A stretch of 64,000 nucleotides of DNA from Siniperca chuatsi (lineage: Eukaryota; Chordata; Actinopteri; Centrarchiformes; Sinipercidae): positions 21,024,501-21,088,500 of the forward strand of contig NC_058042.1 in NCBI RefSeq assembly GCF_020085105.1, given 5' to 3'. The translations under genes and the position numbers were made by a program. Under the pieces are notes generated by a model. That model did not search any database. It saw only the letters and a list, made by a program, of their open reading frames with translations, and had not been told where the DNA came from. How positions within the stretch are numbered: the first letter of the stretch is position 1; every line of letters begins with the position of its first letter. Below are positions 1 through 48,863 of the stretch, piece after piece.

Positions 1-330
1 GAAGAAGAAGAAGATTAATAGTAATAGCACATAAGCAATTGATTTGGTTAAAAAAAAAGTAATAATGTGTTGTTCTTAAAATAATGTGTGATAAGTTTGG
101 CAGCAATAGCTCAGCTATTTTAGTTTTCTTTCCTTTTACATTGCCTTTGCCATATTTGTTTACATTTTTGTCAATTCAATCTCCATTATAAACAAAATGT
201 AAAATTTTATTATATCACATTAGAATGCTTCTATTTCAGAGGCTTTTGATTTTATGAAAACCAAACTTAAAAGCTCCTGCAGAAGAGGAATGATTGAATC
301 ACTGAGTAACTGACTTTCTCTATCTTCCAG

Positions 331-2518
331 GCTCGGCGTATCCTTAAAACCAGTCATATGGAGCGATTAGAGAAGAGAGTAAGGAGAGCCATCGAGAAAA
401 CACTCACCGCCCCACAAGTTCAAAAACTAGATGAGGTAAGATGCTGATTCAGCCCCTGGGTTTGTGAGATGCAAATACTGTACAAGAACTAGCAGGGACA
501 AGTCAGTGTTGCCTGGCAAGCTGAAAATCTTTTTCTGTACAGGTAGTACAGAAAAAAATCAAATAGTAACTTAAATGGGTAATCAAGAAAATGTGTTTAG
601 GTCTGAGAAGGTACGGTGACAAAGTCAGGTTTTACACAGGGTTGATGTAAATGTTTTGTCATTCTTAGCTTTACTTTTCTATTATTACATTAATTAAGGT
701 AGTTCCACTTTTGCCTTAGTTTAAATAAATCCTAAAAATTACTTGTGTGTATGCATCTGTGTATGTGTTTAGGGTGAGCATGACTTCTGGAACAAGTTAA
801 TCGAACGCTACTTGAAGCCCATCATTGACACTAAAGCACATCTGGAGGACGTCACAAGAGAACTAAAGTCACTGCGCAACAAGGTCAGCTCTCTGCATTT
901 ACTGTTTGTGCAAATGGGTCTGTTTTTTTGTGTTTATGGCATCAGTTCTCACATGAAGTGTGCATCTGTTTGGACCTTGAAATACTGACAACGTATTGGG
1001 CCAGTTTATTTTCTAATTATTTATTAAAACATTAGTCTGTTTTGGGAGCAAGCCTACTGAGGGGTCTACTACAGAAAGGGAGAGGCCAAAGACAAGTCAA
1101 ACAGAAAATTGACCCATCTATTTATGTTTATTGCTCTCCTGATTGGTGTGTTGTTGACTTCGACCACTGTCAAACCACTCGCAAACCTTCCTGAAGTGCA
1201 CATGCCATGATAACATCAGAGAAAGTGAGGGAAAAAGTTCCTCCAGCCAAGCAAGAGCTGAAAACCCAGTCACCTCTTACCATCTGTTGCATAGTGCACC
1301 TTTTAATCTGCTTAGAAATTTAGAACAAAGGAGGGATATAAGAAAAGTTGATAGCTTCCAGTAAACAGTGTAGCACAGTGGGCTTCAGGTGCTGGGAGGC
1401 CAAGGAATAATTTCTTTTTGGAATAAACAGAGCCAAGAGCTCTGTCCAAACTGTTAGTGCTTTCTACAAACGTTTGAGGTGACCCTCAAAAACGACTCTT
1501 TTGCTTTCCTTAAAATATGTTTTTACGTCAACCTATTAAAAGATATATATTACAATTACAGCCTAGATTTTAAAGGCAGATGTCAATATCAATATTTGAG
1601 AGTTTAAAAAGCCGATAATACAGTATACTGTCCAATATTCGTTTTTTTCGTAAACACAAACGTTTCTGATAAATTTTGGTTATCAAAAAATTGCGACCAA
1701 GATATGTAGTGAGCGGGACATTTGAAATAAAAAAATAATAATTTGTCAATGCTGTCTGGTGGAAAAACTACAGTACTAAATGCTGACACTGTTTCTAAAT
1801 TACCTCAGACATATCTTTGGCATTTGTCTGGTACAATTCCTTGTGACTTATTGGCCAACATATATGCTAATACCGATATATCTGTGATAAACTAGCTTTG
1901 TTATTGTATCATTCAGAAAACATCCCTTGATTGGCTTGTTTGGAATGGGAATGACAATGAGCAAAGACTCATGGGGCATTTTATATCTTTCTGGGGAGTT
2001 CATCTCAGTTAAAATTTCTGTCCATTTTGTATGCACACTCATACTTTTCAATACAACTAACATTGCAGGCACTAAAACTGACATGTTATTTGTATTTAGT
2101 ATGAAGAAACAGTATTAAATACTCCTTCCTCCCCACAGGCAGTCTTCCTGTATTTCATCATCAACGTGCTGTGGGTGGTGGCTACCTTCTTCCTGCAGGC
2201 CATAGGAAATGATGTCATCAGCATCAAGATCCCTAAATACTATCCAAATGGAAGTCTATCTGAAGAATCCCTCAAGGTTGGGAGAGACAGACACACACAC
2301 AGACAGCCCTACATGCATGTGCTGCAGAGATAGAATTAGTTAAAAGGAGGACTGTGACATATTTTTGAATGTTTGTCAGTAATGCTGTAACTCCTGCTAA
2401 AAGTAATCACCATTACTGTCATTTTGTGTTGACAGGTGGAGCCAGTCAGTTTGATGTTCCTGTTGTCTTTTGCTATTCTTCTCATTATCCAGTTTCTGGC
2501 CATGTTATATCACAGGTG

Positions 2519-2549
<31 letters not shown>

Positions 2550-5500
2550 TTTTTCTCATCACTTCAAATTCAGTTTTTACTTTTTTGCAGCTGTAAAATC
2601 AGACTATATATTTGACAGCTTCATGGCTAACTCACAGACTGACCTTGAAAACTAAGCAGGAAAACATCCTAATTTTCAGAGAGTGGAGGTTTGATTCAGT
2701 GGCAAAGAAATGATAGCAAAGTTTTTAAACTGGTACTGAATATTTTCCCCCATCATGAGCAGCATTAATACATTTATGGAGAATTATAATTACATCTTCT
2801 GTTCTTGGAACTATTCTACATCTGTTTCTTCATTTTCCCATATTTTCTACTCGTGTTTCATCTTGGTGCCTCTCTGTTTGCAGGATCTACACTCTGATCC
2901 ATGTGGTGTCCTATCGCAGCACAGAGAAAGACTACAGACAAAGAGACAATGTAAGTAACAACACTCAAACACACACACACGTATATACACATAAAACTGC
3001 TGGGACTTTGTTTTTGTACCTTGTCAGGTACAAGACTTGCAGAGGCTTTGAATATATTAAGGTCCCTTAACATAACATTGTTAAAGAAAGAGAACCAAAC
3101 GGACTTGTCATGAAAACGGAAACAGTAAAACATAACTATACACAAATCTAAACTTCACTATCAATCACTAAAACATAATGACAGCTTGTTTAGACACCCA
3201 AACATTATGACACTATACTAATATGGCTTTTGCATCAACATTTGCAGTACACCTAAAAACTCACAGTATATATATGACTCAAGCACTGACTGGAATGGAC
3301 TGGGACTTAAAAGCAGCCCTGGAGTTTGACACAGAGCAGCCAAACACAGCTGGCATGCAAATACTACAAGGCCTATGACGGGATTCACATACAGTATGGT
3401 GTATTCACAATAGAATATGCATTTAAATATGAGTTTAATATAGGCAATTGCGCAAGAGGGGTTCAATAACATTTAATCATTACAAAAAATGCAGAAAGTG
3501 CAATAATGGGTTCCAAAAAGAAAACATATTCAATATATAAGGTATGAGCATGTAAGCTAAATAAAGCTAATGGACAGGTAAAGGATATTATTTATTCAGG
3601 CCATAGATTAGTAGTGACATGTTGTGAGGGAAAAAAAACATAAAAGGGGAGCCATGTGGCACATTCTCTCTTAAAAAAGTGTGCATGTATCTAAATTTTA
3701 GATTTGAAGTACTGTACTGTCACACATGCAAACCAAGTTTTTTCAACTGCAGAATGACATTAAGACAACAAAATTGTTTCAGTTAAAATAAAAGAATGCA
3801 TACATGACTTACGCATGTTTTTGTTATCCATCAATTTAACATAAACATTTATATAGGCTAAAATGCAAATCTTCTTACCTAGTTGCAAACAAAGTACAGA
3901 TCAGTCTTGATTAACACGGGGATAGTGATGACTTCTACAGCATTTAATTGTCATAAATTAATAATATGGTAAGTTCTGGCAGTGTGCCATCTATAAAATT
4001 AAATGAGCAGCAGGAGACCCCACACAGGACTCCCTCCAACACATGACAGCTGGCTACATATACATGCTGTTTTCCTTTGCAAGGTCGTTATTAAAGCAAA
4101 TTACTCATTATCCAGCACAACTTAAAAGAAAAGGAAGGACTATAGGCATAGGCTACAAACCGTCACAAATCACACACAGCCAAACAGGTGACTTGACAAC
4201 TAAAATGTCAAAAAAATAAACATGAAACTGGAGGGTTCTTAAAGGTGCTATTGATAACCTCTGCCAAGGTGCATTTATTTATGCTAAAGTCGCGGTGAAA
4301 AGAGGATAGGGTTAAATAGCACTGGAACAACAAGAATACGTTTTTCTTCCATTTTTATAAGACATAGCGGAACAGAGAATGGGATGGTGAAACAAAAACA
4401 TTTGACTGATTGGTGGACGCTTCAGCGCGTCATTGGAGCGCTGGAAAAGGCTGAGGCCAGCTCAACTTTGTTTTGTAGCGCGTCACTCCCATCACCTAGC
4501 AACAAGTGTCGGGAGTCAGTCTGTAGCTTCATGGCTTCCATTGAAAATTAGTTGTAGCCTGATGGTTTGTCGCCGGTAGTCTGAACACAGCATAGCTATA
4601 CTATACTATACTATACCACGTGATTCAAGCATCGTATACTATTGTCTCACAAGCCTTATTAGAAGCAGGAACCAAACGTCAGACATCTCACACAGAAATA
4701 AATTCAGTCATTTTGCACCTATATATATTATGAAAAGTGATCCTTTTATTCTGCACCTTTCTAAAAGCTCTGGGTGTTTTTGTTGTTGTTGTTTTTTTTA
4801 CATTCTTCTACATAAAAATGTTATCAACATAACCTTTAATATGTTCCAAGCCCCAGCTCTTGTGCTGGGTGTCTGAGTGTAGACAAACTTCATTAACCCT
4901 GACTATGATATCACACAAACAGCTACATTCAGGCAAACCCATTACATGCGATAAAACCACATCAACAACTGCATATACAACAGTAAAGAAGTCCATACAG
5001 ACAGCCACAGCTGGTCATTTGCCACCAGGAAAGCCACAGAGGGAGCAGGGAGAGAGGAGGGGGTGTGTTTGACTCACCTACCGGTATTTGAAGAAGGCCG
5101 CTGGCCTCCATGGTGGCAAAGTGTTGATAACCACGTCAGATAATTACATTATTTTGTCCAAGTCTTCCCATGTGTCATGTGCTCTGACTTCGCCCTCTTT
5201 CTTTACCCGGGCAGGTCCAGTTTCGGAGCAGCTCCCTTCAGTTTCTCCTCTCAATCATTTTGAGCGGTTTGATTTTAACCAGCTAAGATTAGCTAGTGAA
5301 GTAGTCACGCAAAAAAAGCAGGTAGCTGATATCATTAGCGCTGCTGGGAAACTTGATAACTAACCCAGTTTGTTTCTTTTGAACAACTTTGCTAACTTTC
5401 TAGGGTTTAATTGGAGTGAAAGAGGCCACAGTGGCTTCCATTCACAATTTTTACCTGAGTCCTGACCGCTTACTTAGTTTCCCAGTGGCTTGAAGTTTTT

Positions 5501-6240
5501 ACTTATCAAGGGATGCCATTGCCAATCTCACCTGCGTTTCTATCGGTAGACACGCTCGCCTCCATAACAGTGCAATACCATCTGTCACCACACAAGCTAA
5601 TTGACGTTTACCACACCTTCCAATCCAGAGGGCGCTGTTTCACTCATTTTACCAAACTCAATGGAAACTTTGGGATAGATAGATTTAAAGTAAAACTGAG
5701 AAATTTCAAGGAAGGTCTGACAAATAGTGAATGGCACTGAAAATATTGAAGATTGATAGATTATTTAATTAATCCCAATGAGAAATTGCATTGTTGCAGC
5801 AGCCAAGTGGGTATAGTTGTAACATTACAATATTTTAAACAGCATAAACTGCAGGGCTGTAGCGTTTAAGTTTCATATAGCTCAAATCTTCTGCAGACAA
5901 AGCAGTTTTTCAAAAGGTTTTGAATCTGTATTTTATCTATAATATATATTTCAATCATCTAAATGTGTGCTGATTAAAACAGACGCTAGATGCAACAAAC
6001 GTGGCCAAAGACAAATGAAACATTTAAAGCCAGAGACATCATCACTCATTCTGTTAACAATGTAGAAACTCTCAGTTAGGATAAGTCTCTTCATTTACTT
6101 GTCAATGCCATCCATGAGATCTTTATTTGTGTGTGTGTCTGTGCCTTCCTGTCACATAGGAGGAGGATGAGGATGATGATGGCTTGACTCTGGAGAACCA
6201 AGTTGCCAATGGACTTGTCATTACCAGTGATGACCTGTAG
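331..6240 (+). CDS. chs1: Chitin synthase, C-terminal part (5' end off the window)
   Basis: Family-2 glycosyltransferase that polymerises UDP-GlcNAc into chitin at the plasma membrane; only the part after the catalytic core is present. Six in-frame exons are seen: 331-435, 773-883, 2139-2276, 2436-2515, 2884-2950 and 6160-6240, all with GT-AG borders. The second exon reads GEHDFWNKLIERYLKPI, the charged segment typical of animal chitin synthases between the catalytic domain and the last membrane helices. Then come two hydrophobic helices: one starting AVFLYFIINVLWVVATFFLQ, and one starting VEPVSLMFLLSFAILLIIQF followed by AMLYHRIYTLIHVV. The last exon is a 26-residue acidic tail beginning EEDEDDDG and ending TSDDL before TAG. 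Exon phases close without frameshift, so the gene looks intact. The catalytic motifs lie left of position 1 and cannot be checked. Mammals lack this gene, but fish and amphibians keep it. The symbol is by family; the paralogue number is not certain. Confidence 0.85.
2951..6159 (+). other. Large last intron of chitin synthase
   Basis: This 3.2-kb intron joins two phase-0 exons. It holds a short CA tract near the donor, a single CACGTG at 4617-4622 and a more GC-rich stretch around 4420-4560. No open frame in it looks like a known protein. A further small exon of length divisible by three cannot be excluded. Confidence 0.55.
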
Positions 6241-6595
6241 TCAGAAACAAACAACTGTAAACAGTGAAACACAACAACCAGCACACAGTGGCATCGCCAG
6301 TGGCAACCAACCAGCAGGTCTCTGGCTGGCAATCAAACACTTCTTTTTCCAGTTTTCACAATGCACTAAATACAGCACATATTAATGATCAAACAGCACA
6401 GAGGATAGCCTGTCAGACAGTTTTTGTAGACAGGCTATGTCTTAACCTTAAGGTCGCAGTAAATCATCTAGTCTTCAGCTATTCTGCAGCAGCTGTTTTG
6501 CCTCCCAGCTAGTGAGATTTGAGTATAGTCCAGCTAAGGTGGCAAAATGGCACAAGGGAAATCAATTATAGAAGAATAAGCTATAAGCTATATCT

Positions 6596-7341
6596 AATAA
6601 ACTTTGTTTGACAATATAAAATGAGGAATTATTAAAATGTGAACTCAGGTTTTTACACAATGGGATCTCAGGTAGGAGTGTTTTTAATTATCAAGTGTTT
6701 TATTTGAATGTATTTGCTCTAAAGACTTGTATTTCTTCTATTTGAAGTATGGTTGAATGCATCAAGTCCACAGACTAATTGAATGTCCTTATCCGAATCA
6801 AGGGACTAAAGATAGAGGGTGTTGTATATGTTGTAGAGAGTGCACATCCCATTATACAATAATTTAGGAGGGTTACAAAAATAAATTTTAAAAATTCCTT
6901 GTTGAAGACACACTTCACATAGGTATCAGAAAGTTTACAGAATAATCAGTGTAATCTGGTCTTTTTTTGCATTTTTATTAATCACAATAGGTTGTATATG
7001 GAAGCAAATCATTTTAATTTGTTCAAGACTAATATGTATGAGCTCCTTGTCAGTTCAGGTTAAAGAACAAATACTTGAATGTTGCTCCCAGGAAACAGTG
7101 CCAAAGATTTATAAATGTGATACTTGCACATGAAATATAGTGAGGAATACTTTCAAGATTTTATTGTTAGACCTCCTATTTTATACTCTGAATAGTTTCT
7201 GGTGTAATTTACACTAATGTGTTGCCTTTTTAATATTGTGTCAAGATGCCATCAGTGTAATTATGTTTACCAATTATGTATACCAATTGTAACAATTCAC
7301 TTTACAAAGGGATAGAATTTTCTTGAAAATATTTAAATAAA
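6596..7341 (+). terminator. Candidate polyadenylation signals of chitin synthase
   Basis: AATAAA occurs at 6596-6601 and again at 7336-7341, about 0.36 and 1.1 kb after the stop codon. Either would give an ordinary vertebrate 3' UTR. The rest of the 6241-8830 spacer is AT-rich and shows no gene. Confidence 0.4.
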
Positions 7342-8836: not shown

Positions 8837-8842
8837 TTTATT
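8837..8842 (-). terminator. Polyadenylation signal of ddx21
   Basis: TTTATT on the plus strand reads AATAAA on the coding strand, about 195 nt after the TGA at 9035-9037. This gives a short 3' UTR. The 3' end of chitin synthase converges on it from the left. Confidence 0.5.
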
Positions 8843-9034
8843 TTCAGGGAGCAGAAATTGGTCATTAAATGTACTGTAAACTTGTGAATATTTGAAAGCT
8901 TACAATTCAGCTTGTATCATGATGGAGATTTCCACCAGCCATACATCAATCCCTCTCACTGACAGCCAATAAAAAAAAATCACTGCCAGCCCAGATGAAT
9001 GACAGTCAGTCTTATCAGTCCACAGGTCGGCACT

Positions 9035-12000
9035 TCAATAATCAAAAGCTTGGCTGAAGTTGCGTTTGTGTCCTCTGTTGTTGCCATAGCCACCACCGCC
9101 ATTCCGGAACCCGTTACCACGGCCACCGTTTCCCCCGAAACCCCGCCCCCTTCCACCTCTGAACCCTCCTCCTCTGTCACCACGGTTACCGCTTCCAAAG
9201 CCTCTGTCGCCACGGTTATTGAACTGCTTCTCCTCCAGCTCTGGGAGCTCTGCGGCTACAGTCAGTTGCCAACGGCGACCGTCCTTCCAGTTATCCTGTT
9301 GAACGATTGAGCGGGGTGAAAAAGAACGTTAGTAGGGCTACCGCAGTCTGCCAACTTCAACAAGAAAACACTGTCAAAAATATTTATAGTTGACTTTGGA
9401 TTATTCATTTTCACAAATTTAATTTAATCTTGAAAACACTATAAACAGTCTATCACATATCCTGAACAGATGGGAGATTTCGCTGTTGTTCTCACCTGCA
9501 TCTCCTTGACTTTGTCAGCTGGGACATCAAAACAAACTCCCTGTAATAAACAGAAAAAGGGTGAGAAGGTGAGTGTTTCTGTCTCCCTCTGTTTTAGAGA
9601 GGAGTCAGTCTGCTGTCAGCTATCAGAATAAGAGCCAGGCATGGTCACACCTACAAAAAAGGTTTCACACATTTAATTTTTCCTAACCGATGTTTTGCTG
9701 TTTGCCTGTTGTGGATAATTAGTTGTGTACTAATGTCTACTGTGGCTGTAGTAGCTGAATTCACATATAAACTAAACAAACAAAGTTTTTTAAAAAGAAA
9801 ATACACGGGTTCTTCTCTCAATTTGCCTTTTGATTTACCACCAGGTTTCCCATTTAATTTTAATTTGCCAAGTCTATTACAATCATTTATGAGGCACTGT
9901 GTGGGCCTTTTTTGTTGTTGCAAAAACTACTAATCCAAGTGGGATCTAACAAAAGCACTCATTGGCTATCACCTCGACCCAATTATTTGTAGCCTACATC
10001 CATGCTCAACTTTATAACTGTATACACCAAATATACTCTTTCTAGTACAGCGATTACTCAAAACCCTATTCTTAACCTTAAGCTAATAAAAGTAGAATTT
10101 GACAAGCTGAACCTAAAAAGTTCCACAATGGCTCCCATACTAAAACACAATGCGATCTGAAATTGAAAAAACAAACAGGAAATGTAACAAATATAATTCC
10201 TTTAACGCATATATAAACGCCAGCAGCACATCACATATGTACATGTTTGTGCGTGTACATACTGTTCTGCCTTTGAGGAAGGTCATTCCACGAATGTGGT
10301 TCTCAATCTCGTCTCCAAGCTGTTCTTTGATGGTTCTCCAGGCGTAACCCAGATTATGCATCTCCTGAGAACACACCAACTGCATAGTGGTGTAACCCTG
10401 TAACAACAAACGGAAACAATAACTAAGGTGGAATTAGCGTTATACAGCACATAAAAGCACAACAAATTCATGACGGTATCTAAATCACGGAGGACAAGTA
10501 CAACATGTTTAATTGCATAACAGGGATAACAGGTCATATCAGGTGGGCCTGTGTGTGTATACCAGGGCTGTTGCAGTTTGAATCATCCTGCAGTTGTTGT
10601 CTAACCCTTGCAGGGTGCATGGTACAACTTCTGCAGTGTTTCAGTTAACACTGCAACCCTAGATGAACATATATGAAGCTACTTTGTCAGGCAATGTTGT
10701 ATGTGAGCGTGAGCAGTAGCCGCTGTTATACCACTTTTTTTGTCTTTTGTTTTGGTTTTTGTGAATATATTTGTGTGTAGGTTGTTGACGAGAATAAAAC
10801 CAAACCAAAACCAAACTTACAGCATCAGAGTTGAGCAGTGACCTCTGCTCTAGACTTGTGGCTCCAGAAATATGGGCCAGGGCTGCAGCTAGCGCATCAA
10901 CTGCTCCTCTTTCCTCGATCAGTTTCTCAGCTGACGCTCTGAAGTACCCGATAGCTGTGACTGGAACAGAGTCCAGAAACCTGGACATAATAAAGAAATA
11001 AAATAATACCAAATCAATCTGACACGTATTTGCTTTCTTCCATACATCCAAAACAAAATATATATGGATCCACTTGGCTCTCACTCTCCAGAATTACCTA
11101 CCTGACAGCATCCTTGCTTGATGACTTGATGATATCATTGGCAGTGGGAACGCCAACTCGTTTGAATGTGATACCCTGGAATAATACCAAATCAAATTTG
11201 TTTAGTTTGATACTCAATATAGAAACATGTAGAGTCACACAGATTGCATAGAACGTCCAAAAGCTGTGTCTTTGTCAATAAAATGTGCAATTTTACACAC
11301 TATTTCTGACTACCGGGAAAAGTCGACTTTCAGTCTGGTTTTCTATGTAGAGCAGCAGCACCTTCTTCAACTCTGGCCTCTCCAATGAAACACTGTCACC
11401 CCTCTACATTTCTGTATTTGCTACTTTTGATTCTCCACTTCCCTTCTGTGCCTTCTCGTCCACTTCCATCCCATGTGTAACACAGAAGTGACTGAAAGCA
11501 TTGTTTTTTATTTTTGCATAGCTGCTCAAACAAATAAACTTGTTGCTCTTCTTTGCCCTTCTGTGATCTACTCCTTTGACTGAATTTAAAAAAAAAAAAC
11601 ACATACTGCTTTGTTTTCTACGTAGCGCAGCTGGTCCTCTTCTTTCCTCTGGTAGAAACAGATGCAGACTCCAGTCCTGCCTGCTCGGCCCGTACGTCCC
11701 GAACGATGGATGTATGACTCCACATCCTGAAACCAACCACAGACACAGAAAAATGTTCAGAGAAAGTAAAAGGTGACAGGCCTTTATGAATCATAATTAG
11801 TTTTGTTTTTTTAAGTGTGCAGTGAAGATTAATCCACTATGAGTTGATTCTTCATTTTTCATCAATCAACCTGTGCTTAAAAGTGTACTGCAGCTGTTTC
11901 CATTTTCAATTCAACTCAATCTGAAGCATGCAAATGCTAATTTTCAAATGTAATTATCTTATGTGAATGGAATCTGCACCTTAAGATCAGAAATTATTTA

Positions 12001-13034
12001 TAAATCTAAAATATAACATCTACATAGCAAAGAAATGGCACGTCCAATAAATGCGAAAATATACTCATGTTATAAAATTCTTATTGATACCTTGGGTGGA
12101 GAACACTGGACCACCAGGTCGACTTCAGGGATGTCTAATCCACGGGCTGCAACGTTGGTGGCAACGAGAACCTCAAAAGCCCCCTTCCTGAAGCCCTTCA
12201 GCGTCAACTCTCTCTGTTTCTGAGGAATATCACCATGGAGGGACTGGGCACTCTGAAAACATATAAACAAAATGAAATGAGAAAATGGTATTGTTCTCGG
12301 GGATCTGACACATTAAACATGCTGCAACAAAAAAAACTGAAAATACAAGCAGAAAACATCAGTTTTAAGAAGCGACAGCCCTGGCTAACAAATGTAACTG
12401 TCACAACTCCCCAATATTACAAAACTCTCAAATGATTGTTATGAAGTTATGTGATATATGAAATGTCAGTTGATCATTTTACAAATTAAAAAAGGTGTAA
12501 TGTATTGCTGTTGTATGAATTAGCTATTCATAAACTGTAAGTCTACCTGTTTGATGGATGCATTCATGGAAAGTTCGTTGGCCTCTTTCTTTGTCTCACA
12601 GAACAAGATGGTTCTGCCGTGGCTGCCGCTGTAAACCTGGATCACATCGCCTATCACGGCTGCACGCTGTGACCAGTGGCAAGCTATGGCCAGATGCTAG
12701 AGGAAAGGACAGACAGAGACAAAAAGATGAACACACAGAGAGAGAGAAACCAGGGAGCAAGAAGAGACATTTTCATTAATCCAGCGGGCAGATTTTAACT
12801 TGTACTTCATTATAATTCCACTGGTGTTGATGATGATAAATACAGAAGTCTTAACAGCAAATTAACTTGCTGGGCTTTCCTGATGGAAATATATGTGAAC
12901 AGTCTGAATTACTTTAACTGTCCCTGCTTACAGGCAACTTTGAGAGAACTAAGCCTAAGAACTAAGATTGCTGTAACGCTTGTTAAATTGCACCCATCAC
13001 ACACCCTTTACCTCTTTCACCTCTGCCAATTAAT

Positions 13035-13075
<41 letters not shown>

Positions 13076-13237
13076 TACTTCTACAGTTGTTGCAGCTCTC
13101 TGTGTTTTCTTGCCAATCAGGTCAACATGTTTGCACTCCGGTCTCATGTATTTCTTAGCCACCTCGTAGACCCAGGGGGGGCAGGTGGCCGAAAACAGAA
13201 GAGTCTGTGGGTTGGAGTCAGAGTCTGGAGAGGAGGA

Positions 13238-13285
<48 letters not shown>

Positions 13286-13291
13286 CCTTAT

Positions 13292-13322
<31 letters not shown>

Positions 13323-13419
13323 GACCATACTGATCATTTAATGTACTTTAACATATATGATACACAAACCAACATCCTAAAACTCCACAAATATGAACAC
13401 ACACATACTCATTTTCACA

Positions 13420-13483
<64 letters not shown>

Positions 13484-16233
13484 TTTACTCTACCTTTCTT
13501 ATATGATGAAGCCAAAATCTCTTCAACCTGTTCTGCAAATCCCATGTCCAACATTTGGTCTACTTCATCCAGAACAACATGTTTCACTTTAGAAAGGTCG
13601 AGTTTATGGTTCTGGATGTGGTCTTTGATGCGACCAGGTGTTCCAACCAAAATATCGATACCATTACGGATAGCATCGACTAGACAGGAGGAGAGGAGTG
13701 GAGAGAGTTATTATTATTAATGTGTAAAGTATGTTGTTAAAACAACAGACCAAAACCACCTCAAAAAACAAATAACGAGCCTTGAGTTTTCTATCTATTT
13801 CAATAGTTAAACCTGAAAATACTTTATAATAAACGTTAAACATTAAGTAGCCATCAATGAAAATAAATGGACTCTTAATGATTTGAACTATTTCAGAATT
13901 CTATTTGTTTTTGCATAAGACTTACTCTGTGGGTTGTAGGAGCTGCCTCCATAGAAACAGGTGATAGCCAGTCTCTTGATAATGTCTTTGAAGTCCTTAG
14001 CGACCTGGATAGCTAACTCTCTGGTTGGAGTTAACACCAGGACCTACAGACAGACAGAAAAGAACCTCAGCCATACACAAACATAACCAGAGAGCAACTG
14101 ATACTGGGACTCTGACTGATGTTAGTTTTCGATGATGGTTGAAAGTGTATGTGTGTGTGCACCTTGGGAGCCCGGCCTCTGGTGAGCACCAATGAATCCT
14201 TCTGGAGCTTCTCCACCAAAGGGATGGCAAAGGAGAAAGTCTTTCCTGTTCCTGTTCGGGCTTGGGCAATTACGTCCTCTCCATCATATACAGGATTAAA
14301 TGTCTTCACCTGAATGTCAAACAGGTGAGAGACTCCCCGGGCTGAGAAAGTGATAGAGAGAGAGGGGACAGAGAGTGAGGAAGGAAAGAAAGTGGGACGA
14401 CAGGACAGGGAGAAAGTTATTTAGCACACCCCAAAGCACCTCAGCAGCTTCAAAGCCCAGTTAACACTCCAAAGTACTTTTTCAGTACAAAAAGAATGTG
14501 CTTATTTCATAATGGTGATCACCAAATTTCAAATTCAAAATGTTTACTTCTCAAACACTGACACAAAATGTCAATCAATACTACAATCTTGAGCCACAGA
14601 GGGAAAAACTATGGTATAAAAACGTAAATGTGATGTTTACCTTTTAGTTTATCGATGGTGACTTGGGAGATCCTGAAGTTGGAGAAGGCCCCTTCCCTCT
14701 GCTCTGGTGTCTCCTCCTAAACAAATAAACAGAGTCAGTCTATATGACTGTTATCTTACCCTACAGCTCACTTCGAAGAGTGTCTGAAACAGCTCAATTA
14801 TTTATTTTAATTACCACAAAGCGGAGTCATCATACAGCTAGTATCAACACAAACATTCAACTTCTCCTGAGGGGAAAAACTGTACCGTTTCTTTTTCACT
14901 GTCGCTAGCTGAGTCTTCACTTGACTGGGACGGTGTCTGGATGGGCGTCTGAATGGGGGTGTTTGGGGTGGAATGTCCGTTGGTTGCTTCCTCTGCGATT
15001 GCCTTCTTTTGCTTCTTTCTTTTCTAAATCCCAAGATAAAAGTGGAGACAGTGTTACACAAGGAGCAGAGTAAGACCTCATCTACAAAGCCAGAGAATAT
15101 GCATTTAAGTTTTAAGCAAAATTCTAATCTGCCACCAATCACCTCTATAGCCTTTTCACCATTTACCACGAGAGATCGTCCAATGACCCACAAAACAACT
15201 TGATGGATAATAAATATAGTTTGTTGTCCATTTAGTTCCAAGACTAGACAAAGGAAATCTGGTAACTAAATATTCAAACTAACACAGCACTGACCTCTGT
15301 GTCTCCTTCAGTGTTCTTCTTAATCTTCTGCTTTGGTGTTTCAACACCATTATTGTTGCCATTGATGTCTGTGGCCTCATCTATGTGGCCGTTCACTTGG
15401 TCCGCTGCCAGCTTGTCTTTTTTCTTTTTCTTCTTTGGTGCTGGAGGTTCACAGTCTGGGTCCACCTGCTCTTCCTGGTCCTCCAGCTGCTTCTTCTTCT
15501 TCAGTTTCTTGCCCTCCTTGGTCTTGTTCTTTATTAATTTTTTATTAAAACAGAAATGATAAAAGGCATAGGTTTTAGTTAAACCAAATACTGAGCAACG
15601 ACTAAAAGTTTTAAGAAACTGGCACCTTGGCAGCTTGAGTAATTTAAAGTTTGCTGTTATCTCAGCGTATTGATAAATATAATTAAAAGATAATTAATTA
15701 TATGTGGTTATGTAAGGTACAATACATCGAAGTGGTTAACAAACACCACATTCTATTTGTTACAATTATTATTAGACTTTTTAAAGTGAATCAAATTTAT
15801 TTTTTGTTTATGAAAAAAAAAAGAACTTGTCAGTTCAACACCACATAATGACTTTATTTTGACTTCTCGTAATTATTATAACTACAACTGAATGATTCTG
15901 GAATAAGTTTCTCATTGAATTTTGGTTATTAAGTACATATATTATTTCGTATAAAATAACAGAACTCATGGCAATTCATTTTTAAAATTGTATTTACAAA
16001 AATTAACAAGTACAAAGTACAAAAATTAAAGTACACTGTATTTGATTTTGCACAACCAAGGATGCACTCAGATCATGTTCATGTTTTTAATTCGTGTCCT
16101 CATGAAGTGTATCGCTTTTGATCAACTAATTGATCAAGACAAAATTTATCAACAACTGTTTTGAGAGATGTCTGCATTTTTAAATATAATGTAACTAGAT
16201 GACACTCTAGTTTGTGGTGCTCAAAGCGCCAAA

Positions 16234-16325
<92 letters not shown>

Positions 16326-16401
16326 TATATATATACACACACACACACACAAAATGCATGGATTGTCTCATTCTGGTAATACGCCTGTTTCCTTTTGTCA
16401 T

Positions 16402-16458
<57 letters not shown>

Positions 16459-17529
16459 CTTTATTTTACATTACTTTAACATTTGAAAAACTCAACAGCA
16501 ATGTCTGTTTCCAGAAATCATGACCCGGTTACTCAAGATAATCCACAGACCTTGTTGTGACCAGTTTCATGTAGGAACTACTTTCTTTCTATTGATACTG
16601 AAACTCTGCAACTCACACCAAAACAATCTAGATGGATAAATAACACTACAGGTAAGAGGAAAAATATGTACTTTTGATTTTGGGGTGAACTGTCCCTTTA
16701 AGTTCCTTTAACTGTAAGTGGAGCTTGAGTTGGGGATGCTTTGTGAAAAATATCAATCACCACCAATAAAAATAATCATTAGTAACAGCTATAGTTCATT
16801 TGAATTGTTTGTTTTACTGTTATGAGAAGGTTGTTTGTATACTTGACTAACAGCTGACGAGCCCAGCTGTAGAACACGTCATCAGGTCGCGCCCACAGCG
16901 CAGATACACACAGATCTAAGCAGTCTCCTAAAGGCTTCCACGTTGTCAACCCGTAAATCCGTGTGATCTATAGATCAGCTCGCTAACTCACAAGCATGCC
17001 ATGCGATCTTCTAGCTAGGCTAAGTGGCTACATTAACAATGTATGCAATCATTACGTTAGCAGTGGATCAAATTCACTTTGGGACAGCTTTCCAGAGTGA
17101 CTTTGTAACATCTGTCCAGGAACTAAAGATGAAACATTGCCTTTTGGCTGACTCTGGCGCATTTACAGCAATGTGCACTGTGCCTGTTAAATAAACCAAA
17201 TAAATAAATACATAATTCATACAGCTATTGATTAACGTTACAGTGTTAATATTATTTCACTACTTGTGTCGCGGCATAAACCTATCTTACGTTGCTTTCC
17301 TAACAGTTAGCTAGCCGGTTAGCCGAGGTTTCAGGTTAGCACGTTCAGCCACATGTTGTCAAACATGGAGCAGCCGGAGCAGGACGTCGCACTAGCTACA
17401 CGGATTATTTAGTCTGTCCAGGGCGACACGACCTACGCAGCTCACCTTAAGGGGTTTAGCCTCCGCGACAGTGTCCACATCTTCCTCCATGGCCTGATCT
17501 TCGGTTTCAAAGATGATTTTTGTCGGCAT
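9035..17529 (-). CDS. ddx21: Nucleolar DEAD-box RNA helicase DDX21
   Basis: ATP-dependent RNA helicase of the nucleolus, acting in rRNA transcription and processing. Sixteen coding exons, high to low: 17446-17529, 15295-15528, 14886-15023, 14641-14716, 14163-14341, 13926-14043, 13494-13679, 13079-13224, 12547-12696, 12091-12252, 11607-11726, 11102-11175, 10821-10980, 10263-10397, 9496-9540, 9035-9295. All phases close, giving about 755 residues (human is near 780). Residues 29-152 are a lysine-rich, low-complexity tail suited to nucleolar targeting. Helicase motifs seen: ARTGTGKT (205-212), PTREL (243-247), TPGR (290-293), DEVD in place of DEAD (314-317), SAT (350-352), ARGLD (473-477) and [11 protein letters not shown] (498-508). 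DEVD is usual for DDX21/DDX50. A GUCT domain follows (about 560-650), then an [11 protein letters not shown]-type glycine-arginine tail ending NFSQAFDY. The long RGG tail favours ddx21 over ddx50. The start ATG is in the first exon, 84 nt before a clean donor. Confidence 0.93.
13044..13070. repeat. (CA)n microsatellite at a ddx21 splice donor
   Basis: A CA tract of about 27 bp, read as (TG)n on the ddx21 strand, begins eight bases after the exon that ends at 13079. It is one of four tandem tracts around exon 8. Confidence 0.9.
13243..13481. repeat. Compound CA / ATAC / CA microsatellites filling a ddx21 intron
   Basis: The intron between the exons at 13494-13679 and 13079-13224 is only 269 bp. 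It is dominated by (CA)n at 13243-13283, (ATAC)n at 13295-13322 and (CA)n at 13423-13481. The last tract starts about 12 bases downstream of the 5' splice site on the gene strand. Confidence 0.92.
16231..16457. repeat. Compound (AAAT)n-(AT)n-(CA)n microsatellite in ddx21 intron 1
   Basis: (AAAT)n at 16231-16265 runs into an (AT)n tract to about 16316, then AAAT/AT units and (CA)n at about 16335-16350. A second AT-to-CA transition lies at 16404-16457. The AT tract can fold into hairpins or cruciforms. Such tracts are usually highly variable between individuals. Confidence 0.9.
16671..16706 (+). repeat. Fragment of a small inverted-repeat element (GGGTGAACTG end)
   Basis: The stretch with GGGGTGAACTGTCCCTTTAA closely resembles the right end of the full-length element at 63264-63511. 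Only one end is present here. Confidence 0.5.
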
Positions 17530-21566: not shown

Positions 21567-22240
21567 CAGTGCATCCAAAAACTATTCACAGCGCTTCACT
21601 TTTTACACATTTTATGTTACAGCCTTATTCCAAAATTGATTAAATTCATTATTTTCCTCAAAATTCTACAAACAATACCCCATAATGACAATGTGAAAGA
21701 AGTTTGTTTGAAATCTTTGCCAAAAAAAAAAAAAATCACATGTACATAAGTATTCACAGCCTTTGCTCAATACTTTGAAGCACGTTTGGCACCAATTACA
21801 GCCTCAAGTCTTTTTGAGTATGATGCTACAAGCTTGGCACACCTATTTTTTTTTTTTGGGCAGTTTCTCCCATTCTTCTTTGCAGGACCTCTCAAGTTCC
21901 ATCAGGTTGGATGGGGAGTGTCGGTGCACAGCCATTTTCACATCTCTCCAGAGATGTTCAGTCGGGTTCAAGTCTGGGCTCTGGCTGGGCCACTCGAGGA
22001 CATTCAAAGTTGTCCCGTAGCCACTCCTTTGTTATCTTGGCTGCGAGCTTAGGTTCGTTGTCCTGTTGGAAGATGACTCTTCGCCCCAGTCTGAGGTCCA
22101 GAGCGCTCTGGAGCAGGTTTTCATCAAGGATGTCTCTGTACATGGCTGCATTCATCTTTCCCTCGATTCTGACTAGTCTCCCAGTTCCTGCTGCTGAAAA
22201 ACACCCCCACAGCATGATGCTACCTCCACCATGCTTTAGC
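21567..22240 (-). mobile_element. Truncated Tc1-like transposon (CAGTGCATCC-end family)
   Basis: A terminal inverted repeat starting CAGTGCATCCAAAAAC follows a TACA-rich flank at 21567. The minus strand then reads the C-terminal part of a Tc1 transposase. The clearest frame, 21958-22215, has [12 protein letters not shown], the [15 protein letters not shown] region with the second catalytic aspartate, then a frameshift after KEWLRDN. The N-terminal half and the far inverted repeat are missing, with homology stopping near 22240. This is a dead copy. It differs in end sequence and transposase from the element at 22560, so the two are separate insertions. Confidence 0.85.
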
Positions 22241-32440: not shown

Positions 32441-35400
32441 ATGGCGTCCCTTAACAGTGACGAGTGGAGAGCTATCTGCGATAAATTCACCAACGCCCAA
32501 AACCTTACTGATGTAGAATCACGAAATGACCCGGAAAATGACCCGTTTCGTTCCAAATACAAGGCCAGGGAGCTCCTCAGAGAGATATACTGCTCGCTGA
32601 AGAGTTTCGAGGCCGGCGAAGGTGAGGAGGACGGCGGCGGAGAGAGCGGCGACCAGCGGCCGACAGAGCCGCCGACAGAGCCGCCGGTGGACGGGCAGAG
32701 GGAGGATGTGTTCGGTCAGGGCTTCAGCGGCGACTCGCCAGCCGGGCTGCGGGCCGCTAAACTCGGGGCTGTGGAGTACTATCTGGGCGTCAACCATGTC
32801 GACACAGAGGAGCTGTCAGCCGGGCAGGAGCATCTGATGAACTGCATGAAACTGCTGGAGAGATGCAGAGTGTCGTGCGAGAATGTGTCGCTGTTTATCC
32901 ATGTCAGGGTAACGTTGACGTTATAACTTACTCCTTAATAATGCAATTAAGCTAACTGCCCGTTAGCTTCCCGTTAGCTGTCAGTTTTCTCAGACATTCC
33001 AGCACAAGTCGTCTACAAACAGGCCGTGGCTGTAGCTAAAGTCAAGCTCAACCAACATTTCTAAATAAAAATAATTTTGAAAGATATGACATGACAGATT
33101 GTGACTGAGATGCTGCTACGAAACGAATCGACCATCACGAAGTAATTGACTATAATATTGTTAAACCCTAATACAACTGACAATGGCATCATCAACAACG
33201 CCATTCCTTGACGTTGGAGGAGCATTGTGGTCCAGTGGGGAAGCAGTTTGTACCACCACTCCCCTTTTACATACATTACAGCTTGCGTATCAAACGGTTG
33301 ATGATTTGCCATAATTATTAACAAGAATCACAGTGATTATAAAGCCCTGTAAACAGAGTAAATTATTATTGCTTATGTATTGGCTGTTTGTGTTATCAGA
33401 ACCAGTTGGGCATCCTTTGGGCAGGCCGGGATGAGACAGAGACGGCTCAGGGATTCCTTGAAACAGCAGAATCCATCTATCAACATTATATGAATGAGGT
33501 AAGGTTGGTTTCCTGTGTGACTGTTTACTTGAAGGTACATTGATTGATTGATGACAGGGCAGGAGAGACTGTAGCAGAAGAAAGCCATCGGTGCTACATG
33601 AGGAGTGGGGAGACAGACAAACAGTTTTCTTCCCAGGTTACTGTCCGACTGATTATCTAGCTTCTTTATTGTCTCATAACCCGTCTATCATCTGCCTATC
33701 ATGATCATGATATAGAGTGTCACATAACCATAATTTACCTGTTTGTCAGGACAGGAGCATTGCATTGTTGTATTTTTAATAAAAAGTAGGTGTACATGCC
33801 ATTGGCATTGCATTTTTTTGCATTGTCTGAATTTCTGAGGGCGCTACATTATCCCTAAAATTCATTGCTATTCTCAAATTAAGATGAAATGTGAATACAG
33901 TGCACTAGGTAGCAGAAAGCGAGCAAATAAGTATGCCACCTAATTGTTGGTCGTTAATGTGTGTCACTCGCTGTAACTGTGTTGACACCAGCATTCAAAA
34001 GACAAATTGAACTGAGAAGTATTAGTATCTTGCAACAGCAGGACTGAAAATTACAATGGTCAAATCCTCTTCATCAGCATCCGTGGTTGTTGTGTTTTCT
34101 TTTTTTTCAGGATGGGAGTCCTCCCACTGATATGTCAGAGTACTTCACTACTGAGGAGAAGCTCCTGACACATCAGGAAAGGACCAAGAGGTAACTTGTA
34201 AACTCCAACATCCCTATACAGAAGGCCCACACACATATATGCATTTACAGACTTACTACCTGTTTATTTGAATACTTTTGTCCCAAAATTGGTGTGATAG
34301 TGGTCATTCATGCAGCAAACACAGGCACATGTTTATGTTTCTTTACTATGCTCTGCCTTCCCCATATACCCATTCTCCCATTCACTCTCCAACTTTCCTT
34401 TCTCAGGTTTGAGTTGGCCTACACCCATACCATGTACTACCTCGCTCAAGTCTATAAAAACCTTGGTGAGTCGGATCTTGTTTCACTCAAATAAGTAGAA
34501 CAGTATATACTTATTGGCTCGTGTAAATACTTAAAAACGTGTAAAACGTAAAATGCACTTAATAATATTTAAACATAGAGAACTTAAATTTCTCCATAAT
34601 CCATTAACATCCACTTTTATCTAATAAGGAGTCTTTTGAAGTTGCATCATATCCATCAATTTTTGAGGATGCTTATGGATTCTAATATGAATTGGATTCA
34701 TGTTTATCTATGTAAATATAATGAAGCTGAGGCTTATTATGTTAATATATTGCTTTATTTGATGATAGTAATAATAATATTATACTTTGTCTCCCAGGTC
34801 AAACTGAGCGTGCTGCCACCTACTGCCACAGTACCCTGCAGAGACAGTTAAAGCTAAATCAGTTCAGCCCAATGGAGTGGGCTCTGAACGCTGCTACACT
34901 TTCACAGTATTACATCACTAAGGTAGGGCATAGATTGATGAAAACTGATTGAAAACTTTTGATTTAAAGCCTCAAATAAAATGTCAAATCATTTTGATTA
35001 CATGGCAAGAATTTTGGTTGTAGTAATCCGATACATTTTTGTAAGATCTACTCTAGGTGTTCAATAGCGTTGTCACAGCAGTTTGTTTTTAGTATAAGTA
35101 ATGAGAGGTGTGTCTGTGCGTGTGTGATTTCTAGGGCCGATACATGGAAGGCAGACATTGCCTCTCAGCAGCTACTGTCATCTCAGGTTTGGCAGGAGAG
35201 GTTCCTTCTGAGGCTGCAGCACAGGAGAGTAAGTATCTCTCAAAATCGTAATAATTGACATTTCTGTACATATCAAAATAAGCATACTGATTTTCTTTGT
35301 ATTCTGTAGCCCTAATCATCTACAGTGAGTCAGACATCTTACCTCCCTTCCTCTATCTGACTCCTTCCCCCTCACTCCCTCTCACTTCATCCAGATACTT

Positions 35401-36428
35401 CTATCATTCCTTCCCTCTCCTGGCATATCTTAATATCTTTTTCTCTTTGTGTCTGACCCAGGTGAGACAGAGAGTGAGCGCAGGGAACAGCTCAGACAGA
35501 AGAGAGCAGAGATTGCGAGATGTTGGATCAAATACTGTCTCAACATCTTGCAGGACGCTAAGAAGCTGCTAGAGGTACTGCATGGTTGTATGTGTGTGGG
35601 CACTTATGTGTGGTTGTGGGTGTTTCTAAAATCTTTATACTCAAGTACAAGTCACATGACCAAAGATGATGCAAAGTTGATCATTTTAACTTGTCTGTTT
35701 TTGCTTCAGCCAAACCTTGATGTGCATGTTTTTCATGTACAGTATCTGTATATCTGTGTGTTTTAAGTTTCTGTTTACATGTCCACATTCTTGTGTGTAT
35801 CTGGGCTTAGATCTATATAATTGTATTGTGTTTGTGACCAGGACAACATTGGGGAGCTGGATACTGATCGCCAAGAAGAGTTGAAGAGAGCGAGAAGAGT
35901 TGAGGAGGAGGAGGAAGAGAAGGGCAGGAAGAGTGCTCTGCTGTTTGGCTCTGAAGATACCTTCGACTCCATTGCTAGTCTGGAAGAGAAGGTCTATATA
36001 CTGTGCCTGATACTACTGCTAGTGCTACTAGTAATGGTTTTTGTCATAATTGTTAGTGCATCATGTTGAACTGCTGCTTGTTATCAAAAACCACCATTAT
36101 TTCTGTGTCAGAAGCTTCTCTTTATTGATAATATGTTATAACAGTAGCTATTTTTTAATATTATGTTTTAGTAATACAAGATTTTGATGTGATAGTATCA
36201 CTCCATGTATCAAAAGCATAACCGATTGAGAACAAATCTGACAATAAATACAGATTTCAAATTACTGTATCATCAGAGGGCGCCATTGTAGTAGATGAGA
36301 TCAAACTCCCTGCTTTCTGTTTTCCAGGTGCCCTGTTTGCTTCCACTGGACTTTACTGAGGCCAGAGCTGTATTTCTGGTGGGACAGAATTATGTCACAC
36401 AGGTATGCACAACACACACACACACACA

Positions 36429-36499
<71 letters not shown>

Positions 36500-38265
36500 A
36501 AACTGGGTTGGACCCTCATACTTAGACACTCTTATATAAGTAAACAGACACACACACAGCAGTGGAGCCCAGTTGAATTATCCCATCTAGCTGAGTTATT
36601 CAAGTTACCATTCCAGCAGATAAGTGAAAAATTAATTTAATAAGAAAAATGTGAATAAAAAAATCAGGCTATGAAATTAAATGTTCACCTCCCAGTGCAG
36701 TTTGTGGGCTGTGAAGGCCATGGAGATATTGAACAAATAAATGGGACTGGACTTGACTTGACACTTCAATGAATGTACCAAGCAGATAGCTACAGATGTT
36801 TTCATGCTAAATTCCTCAACAATATTGTTGTCTTAAATGTTCACCTCAAGAAGCAAATGTACACTGTGATGTCGTGAATATGATGTTATTCTGATATATG
36901 ATGTTAAGCTGGTATTAATGGCAGTTTCCCTCTGAAGAATTTTGGATTGAAGGCCAATGAGAGAAATTGTGTAAGGAGCTCAAAACCTGGTTTTCTGAGC
37001 AAGTAAAAAAATGTGATCTGAGTGGATGAGTCCTTTATCCTTTTTCTCCATCCTTTCACTCACTCTCACAGGCCAAGGAGTACTTTCAGATGGATGGCTA
37101 TGTGACGGACCACATAGAGATCTTGCAGGATCACAGTGCTCTTTTCCTGGGCCTGGCTTTCTTTGAAGAGGATCTGGAGCGGCGCTGCAAAATGCACAAA
37201 CGACGAGTTGACATGCTAGAGCCAATCTGCATTGGTACTGCACTAACTTTGTTCTTGAGTTGCAGTTATTTTTGTATTTTTTTGTCTCTGAATAATTTCA
37301 TAGGATTGAGTATGAAAAAGACGAAACAAAATAACTTGTGCGTGCAAAGTGACATAATCGATTAAATCTGACTTTCTCTGACTCTCTCTGTTTCTCTACA
37401 GACTTGAATGCCCAGTACTACCTATTGATCCGCAGACAGTTGATGTTTGAGTTGGCTGAGATCTACAATGAAATGATGGACTTGAAACTGACACTGGCCA
37501 ACAGACAAGCAGATACACAGTCTCTAGATAGTCATGCCATTAAGAAATTCAACCATCTCTGCTCTGCCTCTGCCAAGTGAGTGTATATGTGTTTGTGGAC
37601 ATACATGTGTGTGTATGCATCTACATTTATTCAATCTAAATTATTTGAAATCCTCTGTTCTCCTCTTCAGATACTTCCAGATGTTCCTAGACTCTCTGTG
37701 TTCTCCAGAGGGGAAGCTTCCAGAGCACCTGGAGGAGGAGGTGCTCAGACCGGCTCTGGTAGCCCGCTTTAGAGTGGCCCGACTCCACAGCCGGCTGATC
37801 TGCTCTTCACCCTCTGCTCAGCTGGACAACCTCAACAAGTCTCTGGAAAACTACAAGTATGAAGATATATTTCTTAATTTATGGTGATACATTCAAACAC
37901 TTTCTGGGCTGCATATTGAAAGATCTACAGGATTACTCTATATTATGACAGTAATAGGTAACAGAATGAAAGACAGCTGTATTTGGTGGAATAGAAAGGA
38001 TTTTGTTGAAAGCAGTTAAAATGAATGGAATATGGGGGGAGTGCTCTAAAGTCTACATGCTCCCTGCTGCCATGTTGTTTATCTTTATAATGTGTTGCTC
38101 ATCACTTTCATCCTGCACCTGTCTAGATACGTGGTGCAGTATTGTGAGGCTCACCCCGAGGCAACAGCTGCTGTGGAGACAGAGCTGGAGCTGAGTAAGG
38201 AGATGGTCGGTCTGCTCCCTCTCAAAATCAACCGCCTCAAAGCAAGGATGGCTGCAAACAACTGA
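32441..38265 (+). CDS. kifbp: KIF1-binding protein (KBP)
   Basis: Cytosolic TPR-like helical protein that binds kinesin motor domains and blocks microtubule attachment. Human loss causes Goldberg-Shprintzen syndrome. Thirteen coding exons: 32441-32908, 33400-33498, 34111-34190, 34407-34465, 34798-34922, 35135-35228, 35462-35574, 35842-35991, 36328-36402, 37072-37234, 37402-37576, 37671-37856 and 38127-38265. All phases close, giving 641 residues (human 621). The extra length is mostly an acidic, glycine/glutamate-rich insert near residues 50-85. Family segments seen include MEWALNAATLSQYYI, AEIARCWIKYCLNIL and KKFNHLCSASAKYFQMFLDS. An acidic EEEEEE stretch is in the eighth exon. Translation starts at ATG in AACATGG, in a 468-nt first coding exon. 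It lies between mpc1 and srgn, all on the plus strand. Confidence 0.95.
36412..36498. repeat. (CA)n microsatellite at a kifbp splice donor
   Basis: Nearly 90 bp of CA units with one GA interruption begin about 10 bases after the exon ending at 36402. Confidence 0.92.
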
Positions 38266-45740: not shown

Positions 45741-47970
45741 ATGAAACTGATTCTGTTCTTCGTTATCTCCTGCCTCGCCTTACATAACGGAAAGGGTAAG
45801 TCGACAGTTTATTATTATTATAAAAGACTTTGTGACTCTTGTTACGCAGATACAGGTCGCAGTAGACTTCATATGGACTTTTGTTTTTAATTTTAAAGAC
45901 GGTTGTAGTGGAAACAAGTAAAATCATTTCACACCTTGACAGCTTAAGTGCTCTCCCGGGACATCCTCACAATAACAGAGCAGTAAGTGACACAAACTGG
46001 GGTCTGAGAGCCATCTGGGGTCTTTGATTGACAAGCAAAATTAGGAACTGTTCCACTTCACCGGTATTTGTGTCAGCATAATGTGATAACCGTAAGCAGC
46101 CTGACTCATCTGTTAACATCAGGTTTCTCTGTCCTCACTGCTGGGTATATCTCCCCACTTGTACAGTATGCCTCAGAAAACACAACTTCGAAGTCTAAAA
46201 TTGCACAACTAAGATATTCTGTTGTGGGGGGGGAACAAGGGTCAACACCTTGAGGTTTATGAGGGAAAATGTGTGGGAGCCCCTGCCTGGTTTAGTGCAT
46301 GTTAAATCGGAAAGAGCAACGGCGTTTCAGTTTCCGTGTGAAGTTTCGATGTGGCTTGTTGAAGACTTTGTACATGTAAGGGGGCTTTTTGGAAGGAAGG
46401 AGACTGCCAGGGGAAACCTTAATAAATAAAAAAATAACAATCCTTTGATATGCTTTTGCTGAATTATGTCTGGTACTCAGTGTTTTTAAATCTAATATTA
46501 TAATAATATAATAGTATAGTATTTATTAACCCTTAATTAAAGGGTTAATTACTCTGGGGATATGTGTTTTCTGTTGGTTATATGTGTATACCACTAATGA
46601 GGTTTTGTCATAGCTAATTTCTCAAGGAATATATTAATGCAGGTATAATCTTATTTAAAAGAGGAAAAAAGTAAAAAAAAATAAAAAAAAAAGCCTCTTG
46701 CTGGTTCATCTATTCTTCTTGCAATTATTGGATTTTGCCAATTACTATAGGCCTAAATAAGAGCAGCAGCTAAATTAAGACTTTATTCAGTAGAATTAAG
46801 ATTAAAAATGAAATTATATTTTATTGTAGGTGTCACATGACATGCGCAACCAAAAGCTATACAGCCACTTGACACCAACACCTACACTCGATCAACAGCT
46901 TCATATCAGGCCAGTTACCTTTATAATCCGTGACTCTCTTACTGCCACTTTTACTGGCACAAGATTCAAACTACTTGTCACAGGAAGTCACCCATCTAAA
47001 TGCATCCACAAATTTACAATAAAATGATATTGATACAACTGTCAGATATTAATAGCCTGTTTGATAGATGGTGCTGAATTACCTTTGACAGTAGTATCAG
47101 TGTGATGCAGAAATGTCACACCAGCTTTTCAGGAGGAAAACATTAAAAAATACTTCCCCAGTGTTTGAGATTTTACAAGAGTAATTATATTTTTTTAAGT
47201 TTTAAACAATGCCAAGAGTCCAGCTGTGTGGCCATAACAGGAAATAGGAATTTTGGCACAGCAAATTTTGTTTGATGCAGCATTCACAAACCCATAACAG
47301 AATCCCAACATCAATCATCGAACAGTCAAGATTCCCCAATTGGATGATTAACATGAAATTTGTTTTGCTTTGTCTCACATAGAGGGGTGGCTCATGTTAT
47401 ATTGCTTGCTGTAGCAATGAAACACTTGATAGCCACCAGCTAGTTTCTTTACACTGGATATTGGTGTAAAATAACTGTTAATGCTTTTAGCATCAGATAC
47501 ACTCCATGATCGACTTTCTGCCATGTGTTGAGAAAAAGCCGTGATGCTGTTACTTCCTATTCTAACACATTAGTGAAGAAAATAAACAGCTCTGAAGCCC
47601 ATTAGGCCAACTGTAACTTCACCCTGTTGCACAATCATGTTGTAATCTCCTGAAATCCTCCAAACATGGAACTAGTAAACCTCAGTTGTCACACTAAACT
47701 GATCCAGATGAGTAACCAGATGTTGCCCAAGAACTCTCTGCCTCAGTGAATTATTGCATGATAAAAGAAACATAACTGAAACATCAATGACCCTCTTTCT
47801 CTCTTTAGGAGCACCTAAGACTGCTGCGTATAAGTTTGTGAGATGTAACCCTGAGGGCAACCAGGCCAACTGTAGGACTCACCAAAGTCCAGAAATGGCA
47901 TGGAGTCCAGACCTACCAGCGAAACTGCCTGCTTCAACTGCACAGTATCTGTAAGTATGCATGTGTTGTG

Positions 47971-48020
<50 letters not shown>

Positions 48021-48817
48021 CTCTATGAGAGTGTACAAGCTTGGGATGTGATGGTTTATTTGCTCTGTGAGTTTCTCAGAGCAAGGTAAGAGTGTCTCAG
48101 TAGCAGTGAGTTCACTGTCAAAATGAGTCTGGAAAAACAAAACATCCATCTCTGTTACACAGATAAATGCAGACTTTAAATATAGAAATGCTGATGCTGC
48201 ATTGGATCTGTTACCTTGGTTAACACAACTCCAGCAACACAAACTCTGTACGTGTGTATCTCCATGTGTATTCATGTGATGTGTGTGTGTGTGTTTGAGA
48301 GTGTATAAGTGTGAGGTAGGTGGCCAAGAAAAGCCAAAATAGAAGACAACGTGGAGGGATAACGAAAGACAGAGGGACTGTCAGGGAGAGGGCAGGGAGG
48401 TTAGAGCTGGAATAAGAACGACCTAAAGAGTTCATGGTCTTAGTTTCATATTGTCACAGAGTACAGAAGTAGGAGTATATGTAATTTAAAGCAGTAGACA
48501 TTGATCTATGGTCACTTTTGTTTTACTTCCCCATAGTTTGGAATGAAGGTGAGGAATGTTTCTCTGCACTGAAAGATAATTTTATACAGATTGTTTGAAT
48601 TTAACATTATTTTAAGGTAGATTTTAGTATGGTATATTGGGAAATTAGAGGTGGTTTATGGGTATATTGGGAAATTTGAGGTGGTTTATGCCAAAAACTT
48701 AAAAATACTTACAAACTCATTGTATCTAATGAGCTGTAAAGAGTAAAAGTACAATGAAAACTTACTTCTGGTCATAAATATCAACCTGTTAACTCATATA
48801 CATGTCATCTTAATCCT

Positions 48818-48863
<46 letters not shown>

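Follow-up and report, generated by a model that had tools for sequence, protein, structure and literature searches.

Gene content of the window

The window, meaning the whole stretch of 64,000 nucleotides that was analysed, begins within what is very likely a chitin synthase gene (chs), of which six 3' exons are visible, and continues in the order chs, ddx21, kifbp, srgn and vps26a (Table 1). All six exons proposed by the initial annotation were found at their positions, in frame and with clean splice sites: acceptors are AG throughout, donors are GT in 5/5, and the joined exons form an open stretch of 582 nt coding for 193 aa plus a stop. The first exon (E1) takes over its frame from exons that precede the window, and the join between E4 and E5 (2515/2884) mends a split codon with the frame kept. 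With 193 open codons and canonical borders, the gene was aptly called intact-looking as far as its six visible exons go.

Table 1. Annotated features by position in the window
Feature	Position	Strand	Content and supporting matches
chs E1	331..435	+	35 codons, AG/GT borders; charged helical stretch past the catalytic/channel region
chs E2	773..883	+	coiled-coil-like helix running into the first membrane segment
chs E3	2139..2276	+	membrane segment 1 of the terminal pair; loop with NGS sequon (hydropathy, sequon)
chs E4	2436..2515	+	second terminal membrane segment; 19-residue mean hydropathy 2.7, the highest
chs E5	2884..2950	+	basic stretch past the last membrane segment
chs E6, likely last exon	6160..6240 (stop included)	+	acidic C-terminal tail (SDDL at its end); stop codon
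candidate poly(A) signal	6596..6601	+	first AATAAA downstream of the chs stop, 356 nt away
ddx21	9038..17529 (approximate)	-	tail to tail with chs; Pfam DEAD, Helicase_C, GUCT
kifbp	32441..38262 (approximate)	+	PDB 6zpg, E 1.1e-24; Pfam KBP_C
srgn (serglycin), probable	47712..53004 (approximate)	+	Pfam Serglycin for the first piece, at 22.7 bits (E 1e-4), short of the cut-off of 30
vps26a	56721..60004 (span of pieces tested)	+	PDB VPS26A, E 1.5e-27, vs VPS26B, 6.9e-16; Pfam Vps26

The top PDB match of ddx21, among the best 60 of 121 matches, is nucleolar RNA helicase 2 (E 1.8e-46), which we take to be DDX21. Its GUCT part scored 102.9 bits (E 7.9e-29) with nucleolar RNA helicase 2 and 53.0 bits (E 2.7e-13) with DDX50. 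Both ends of the ddx21 span were assigned by eye, and the first-exon and acidic pieces gave no Pfam match. Taken alone, the piece assigned to this gene at 10662-11093 matched nothing in Pfam or PDB; joined to the next two exons it gave a GUCT match. The second, acid-rich piece of srgn (52624-53004) had no serglycin match in Pfam and was likewise assigned by eye. The presence of ddx21, kifbp and vps26a adjoining chs, together with the weak serglycin match, bears out the vertebrate host that had been proposed, and we infer that this host is a ray-finned fish.

Transposon-like sequences were also noted in the window. A Tc1/Sleeping Beauty-type transposase lies in two adjoining open frames at 22772-23785 on the minus strand (Pfam HTH_SB, HTH_Tnp_Tc3_2, DDE_3), and a second Tc1-like, transposase-looking piece in two frames was recognised by eye at 21846-22278 on the same strand, the tested piece having no Pfam transposase match. 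The longest stop-free stretch of the window (26784-27413, minus strand, 210 aa) resembles, on visual inspection, the final part of a retroelement polymerase and gave nothing in Pfam up to E 0.1. The tRNA search returned 0 genes, and Rfam returned 0 matches at gathering score over the whole window. A SCARNA7-like Rfam match at 2513-2645 on the minus strand (searched in 1-8500) was rejected, its 25.9 bits lying far below the cut-off of 65; it overlaps a CA repeat and is probably due to chance. In the long chs intron, 3 weak pairs of inverted repeats were seen, none of them clear.

Coding evidence and the end of the gene

The joined chs exons have a GC content of 0.51/0.29/0.56 at the three codon positions, compared with 0.38 in the introns, and the 3-base periodicity is intact. 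Random non-coding joins of the same size equalled the spread of codon-position GC in 0/20000 cases for the six-exon join and in 0/20000 for exons 1-5, and random pieces equalled that of E6 alone in 103 of 20000. When pieces of matching size were drawn from the chs introns, 12 of 200000 draws contained no stop. A codon score was trained on 908 codons from the neighbouring genes, and with it exons 1-5 together reached +0.21 bits per codon in their own frame, the two other frames giving -0.27 and -0.20. None of these coding figures is a clean p-value, the exons having been chosen beforehand, and they serve as support, not as strict tests. When exons were scored singly, the exon's own frame was the best in 6/6 and was positive in 5/6. 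E3 and E5 each scored +0.21 in frame, E1 scored +0.31 with its other frames slightly positive too (+0.14, +0.03), and E4, which encodes a membrane segment, scored about zero (-0.02) with its other frames lower. A tblastn search for second copies of the chs exons within the window produced 9 rows, 5 of which are the gene itself; the 4 others, at E 0.46-6.7, were dropped as candidates for extra copies.

These observations bear on whether the locus might be a decayed copy, in which the last six exons are good while the catalytic part further left has been lost or broken, as in extra copies. The catalytic part would indeed lie left of the window, and extra chs copies are known from salmonids (PMC1971071, PMC7853315, in excerpt). 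However, the unbroken reading frame of 193 codons, the canonical exon borders and the undisturbed periodicity all argue against decay, which we consider quite improbable.

The initial annotation had placed the last exon about 3.2 kb beyond its predecessor, at 6160, and the intron between E5 and E6 indeed measures 3209 nt. Alternative endings were sought in a loose scan of 2951-9000 that asked for an acceptor and an open frame, and seven candidate terminal exons were returned, 6160-6240 among them. E6 outscores its six rivals, with +0.62 bits per codon (a score raised by its richness in GAG/GAT) against -0.04 to -0.45, in agreement with the proposed placement. The last exon would be misassigned if the transcript read through after 2950 or ended in another terminal exon, in which case the acidic SDDL tail would not be made. 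Such an error could be suspected from the 3.2 kb that separate E5 and E6, from the six other candidates that pass the loose filter, and from the read-through past 2950 (a retained intron), which stays open for 39 codons. The codon scores of the seven candidates speak against it, as do the GTAAGT donor at 2951 and the AATAAA 356 nt beyond the stop, and we regard misassignment as unlikely. The stretch 6160-6240 is likely, although not proven, to be the last exon of chs.

Family identity and protein layout

With high confidence, we read the six exons as the 3' end of an animal-type chitin synthase gene from a ray-finned fish. On the basis of layout and apparent similarity, their assignment to the end of a chitin synthase is very likely. 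The 193-residue end presumably resembles the ends of insect chitin synthases, and its two C-terminal membrane segments stand behind a coiled-coil-like stretch, an arrangement expected of metazoan type II chitin synthases and described for the insect enzymes. The earlier reading of a chitin synthase end is supported in its layout, which is like that of the insect enzymes; none of the databases searched gave a match to the family. Searched with the chs protein, PDB gave 4 matches with E values of 10 or less, the strongest at E 0.039. In Pfam the chs piece gave four at E 1 or less, the strongest at E 0.0045, and each of them stayed under its cut-off, at 12-17 bits against 26-32. The matches from both searches were treated as chance. 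No SAM domain was matched in Pfam up to E 1. The SWGTR motif, which in this family follows the fifth membrane span past the catalytic part, is absent from the 193 residues and would lie upstream of 331, and the motifs EDR and QRRRW of the catalytic Chitin_synth_2 domain do not fall within the window, the catalytic exons being expected to its left. A 128-residue part of the protein gave 6 pattern matches in viral contigs and 90 in prokaryote genomes, with 0 confirmed in either collection, and no matches in plasmids, as expected for an animal gene. Among the collections searched, animal chitin synthases are to be expected in Pfam and PDB alone.

A multi-pass membrane protein of another family whose end is built alike could in principle account for the same exons, and the family libraries do not confirm the name chitin synthase. 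Yet no rival family rose above its cut-off among the four Pfam matches, and the layout matches that of a chitin synthase, so that we consider a different membrane protein very improbable.

Both the two membrane segments and the acidic tail described by the initial annotation can be seen in the translation, by hydropathy and sequence respectively. The segments cover approximately residues 73-92 and 121-143, limits that were placed by hand from hydropathy. Hydrophobic residues follow one another at a spacing of 3-4 (L59, V62, L66, L69 and A73, where E3 starts), a coiled-coil-like heptad spacing as judged by eye. A basic stretch follows the second segment and leads to the acidic tail ending in SDDL. 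PDZ-binding C-termini of class I have the form S/T-x-hydrophobic, and those of class III the form D/E-x-hydrophobic. As a sequence pattern alone, SDDL matches only the class III form, D-x-L. By inference, the TSDDL tail may bind partner proteins.

The loop of 28 residues has 3 lysines and arginines, fewer than the 23 residues ahead of the first segment (6) or the 23 past the second (5), and the sole N-glycosylation sequon (NGS) falls in the loop between the segments. This distribution of charge and the position of the sequon fit a loop that lies outside with both ends in the cytosol. We therefore think that the loop between the membrane helices would be outside and that the helix and the tail would be cytosolic. 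According to excerpts of the literature, the C-terminal part of insect enzymes crosses the membrane seven times: five spans adjoin the catalytic region, the fifth is followed by a coiled coil, and the remaining two lie close to the C-terminus (PMC6355952, PMC5573318). The excerpted planthopper study places the coiled coil on the extracellular side (PMC6355952). In the available part of a review, earlier chitin synthase models are said to have taken interface helices for membrane helices, the structures behind this view being those of fungal and oomycete enzymes (PMC12653383). Were one of the five spans an interface helix of this sort, the coiled coil would be cytosolic. In the same part of that review, dimerisation is associated with the fifth membrane helix (PMC12653383), and the visible end of chs may therefore aid dimer formation.

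With this in mind, one may outline how the enzyme would work. Chitin synthase would join GlcNAc from UDP-GlcNAc at its cytosolic face, and the growing chain would be pushed outward through the enzyme's own membrane channel. The visible part of chs would lie beyond this channel and comprise the charged coiled-coil-like helix, the two last membrane helices and the acidic tail. Holding the subunits together would fall to the coiled-coil-like helix and the final pair of membrane helices, and the tail, in the cytosol, would serve in transport or in anchoring at the apical membrane.

The locus and its relation to known chitin synthases

The order of the STOX1-VPS26A region in human presumably agrees with that listed for cattle. 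The cattle list, in the excerpt available, runs TET1, CCAR1, STOX1, DDX50, DDX21, KIFBP, SRGN, VPS26A, SUPV3L1, and we assumed it to be in map order (PMC12111605). In the present window the order of ddx21, kifbp, srgn and vps26a is that of the cattle listing, and chs flanks ddx21 at the end that faces DDX50 and STOX1 in this list (PMC12111605). An excerpt on horse lists the same genes, although not in the cattle order, and is therefore uninformative on order. In the open-access literature we found no publication naming a linkage between chs and ddx21, no joint mention of chitin synthase with ddx21, and no publication matching a search on chitin synthase loss in amniotes versus fish. One publication, on expression in salmon skin, mentions chitin synthase together with nucleolar RNA helicase 2, and among 4 publications that mention at least three of chs1, ddx50, kif1bp, vps26a, figla and hkdc1, none includes chs1.

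It may be, though somewhat less likely than not, that chitin synthase had its ancestral vertebrate location beside ddx21, kifbp, srgn and vps26a, and that the interval between STOX1 and DDX21 is where mammals lost it. On this reading, the mammalian STOX1-DDX50-DDX21-KIFBP-SRGN-VPS26A region would be free of chs, remnants could be sought between STOX1 and DDX21, and a comparison of amphibians, reptiles, birds and mammals could date the loss. A later move of chs is also conceivable, because the salmonid copies linked to the MHC show, in the excerpts available, that the gene has appeared at new places (PMC1971071, PMC7853315). Chitinous gut membranes occur in ray-finned fish and are absent from mammals, and their loss has been proposed to have opened the mucus to microbes (PMC6109156, in excerpt). 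A fixed chs locus would allow the mammalian loss to be traced in genomes.

As in insect chitin synthase 1/A, a coiled-coil-like stretch is followed here by two C-terminal membrane segments (PMC6355952, PMC5573318, in excerpt). Insect CHS1 carries an alternative exon of 59 residues that bears one membrane segment, according to the excerpted report (PMC6355952). Within the window, the tblastn search gave no further copy of E3, the exon with the first membrane segment, and there is therefore no sign of an insect-type alternative exon.

Type II chitin synthases are present in Danio and Xenopus (PMC3942024, in excerpt). Among teleosts, excerpted work distinguishes two subclades of chitin synthases, I and II, and reports expression of one in the gut and pyloric caeca (PMC10234404); in tilapia there are chitinous gut membranes, and chs is expressed in the gut epithelium (PMC6109156, in excerpt). 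The statement of the initial annotation that the role of chitin synthase in fish is still poorly described was thus too strong, since published work describes the genes of teleosts and their subclades as well as expression and chitin in the gut (PMC10234404, PMC6109156). The present gene, as an animal-type gene in a ray-finned fish, is like the teleost chs1 and subclade I and II genes (PMC10234404); the motif by which that excerpt tells the subclades apart, CATMWHXT, falls outside the window. The gene is thus unexceptional within a family already described, and what it adds, modestly, is a mapped locus.

This locus can be set beside those of two other fish chitin synthases. In salmonids, MHC-linked chitin synthase/CHS2 genes lie between RXRB and SLC39A7 (PMC1971071, PMC7853315, in excerpt), unlike the present chs, which lies beside ddx21. 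In tilapia, chs1 has a figla-like gene on one side with csmd1 beyond it (PMC9316214, in excerpt), whereas here the 3' neighbour is ddx21. With one side of each locus compared, the tilapia chs1 locus and the present locus may be the same.
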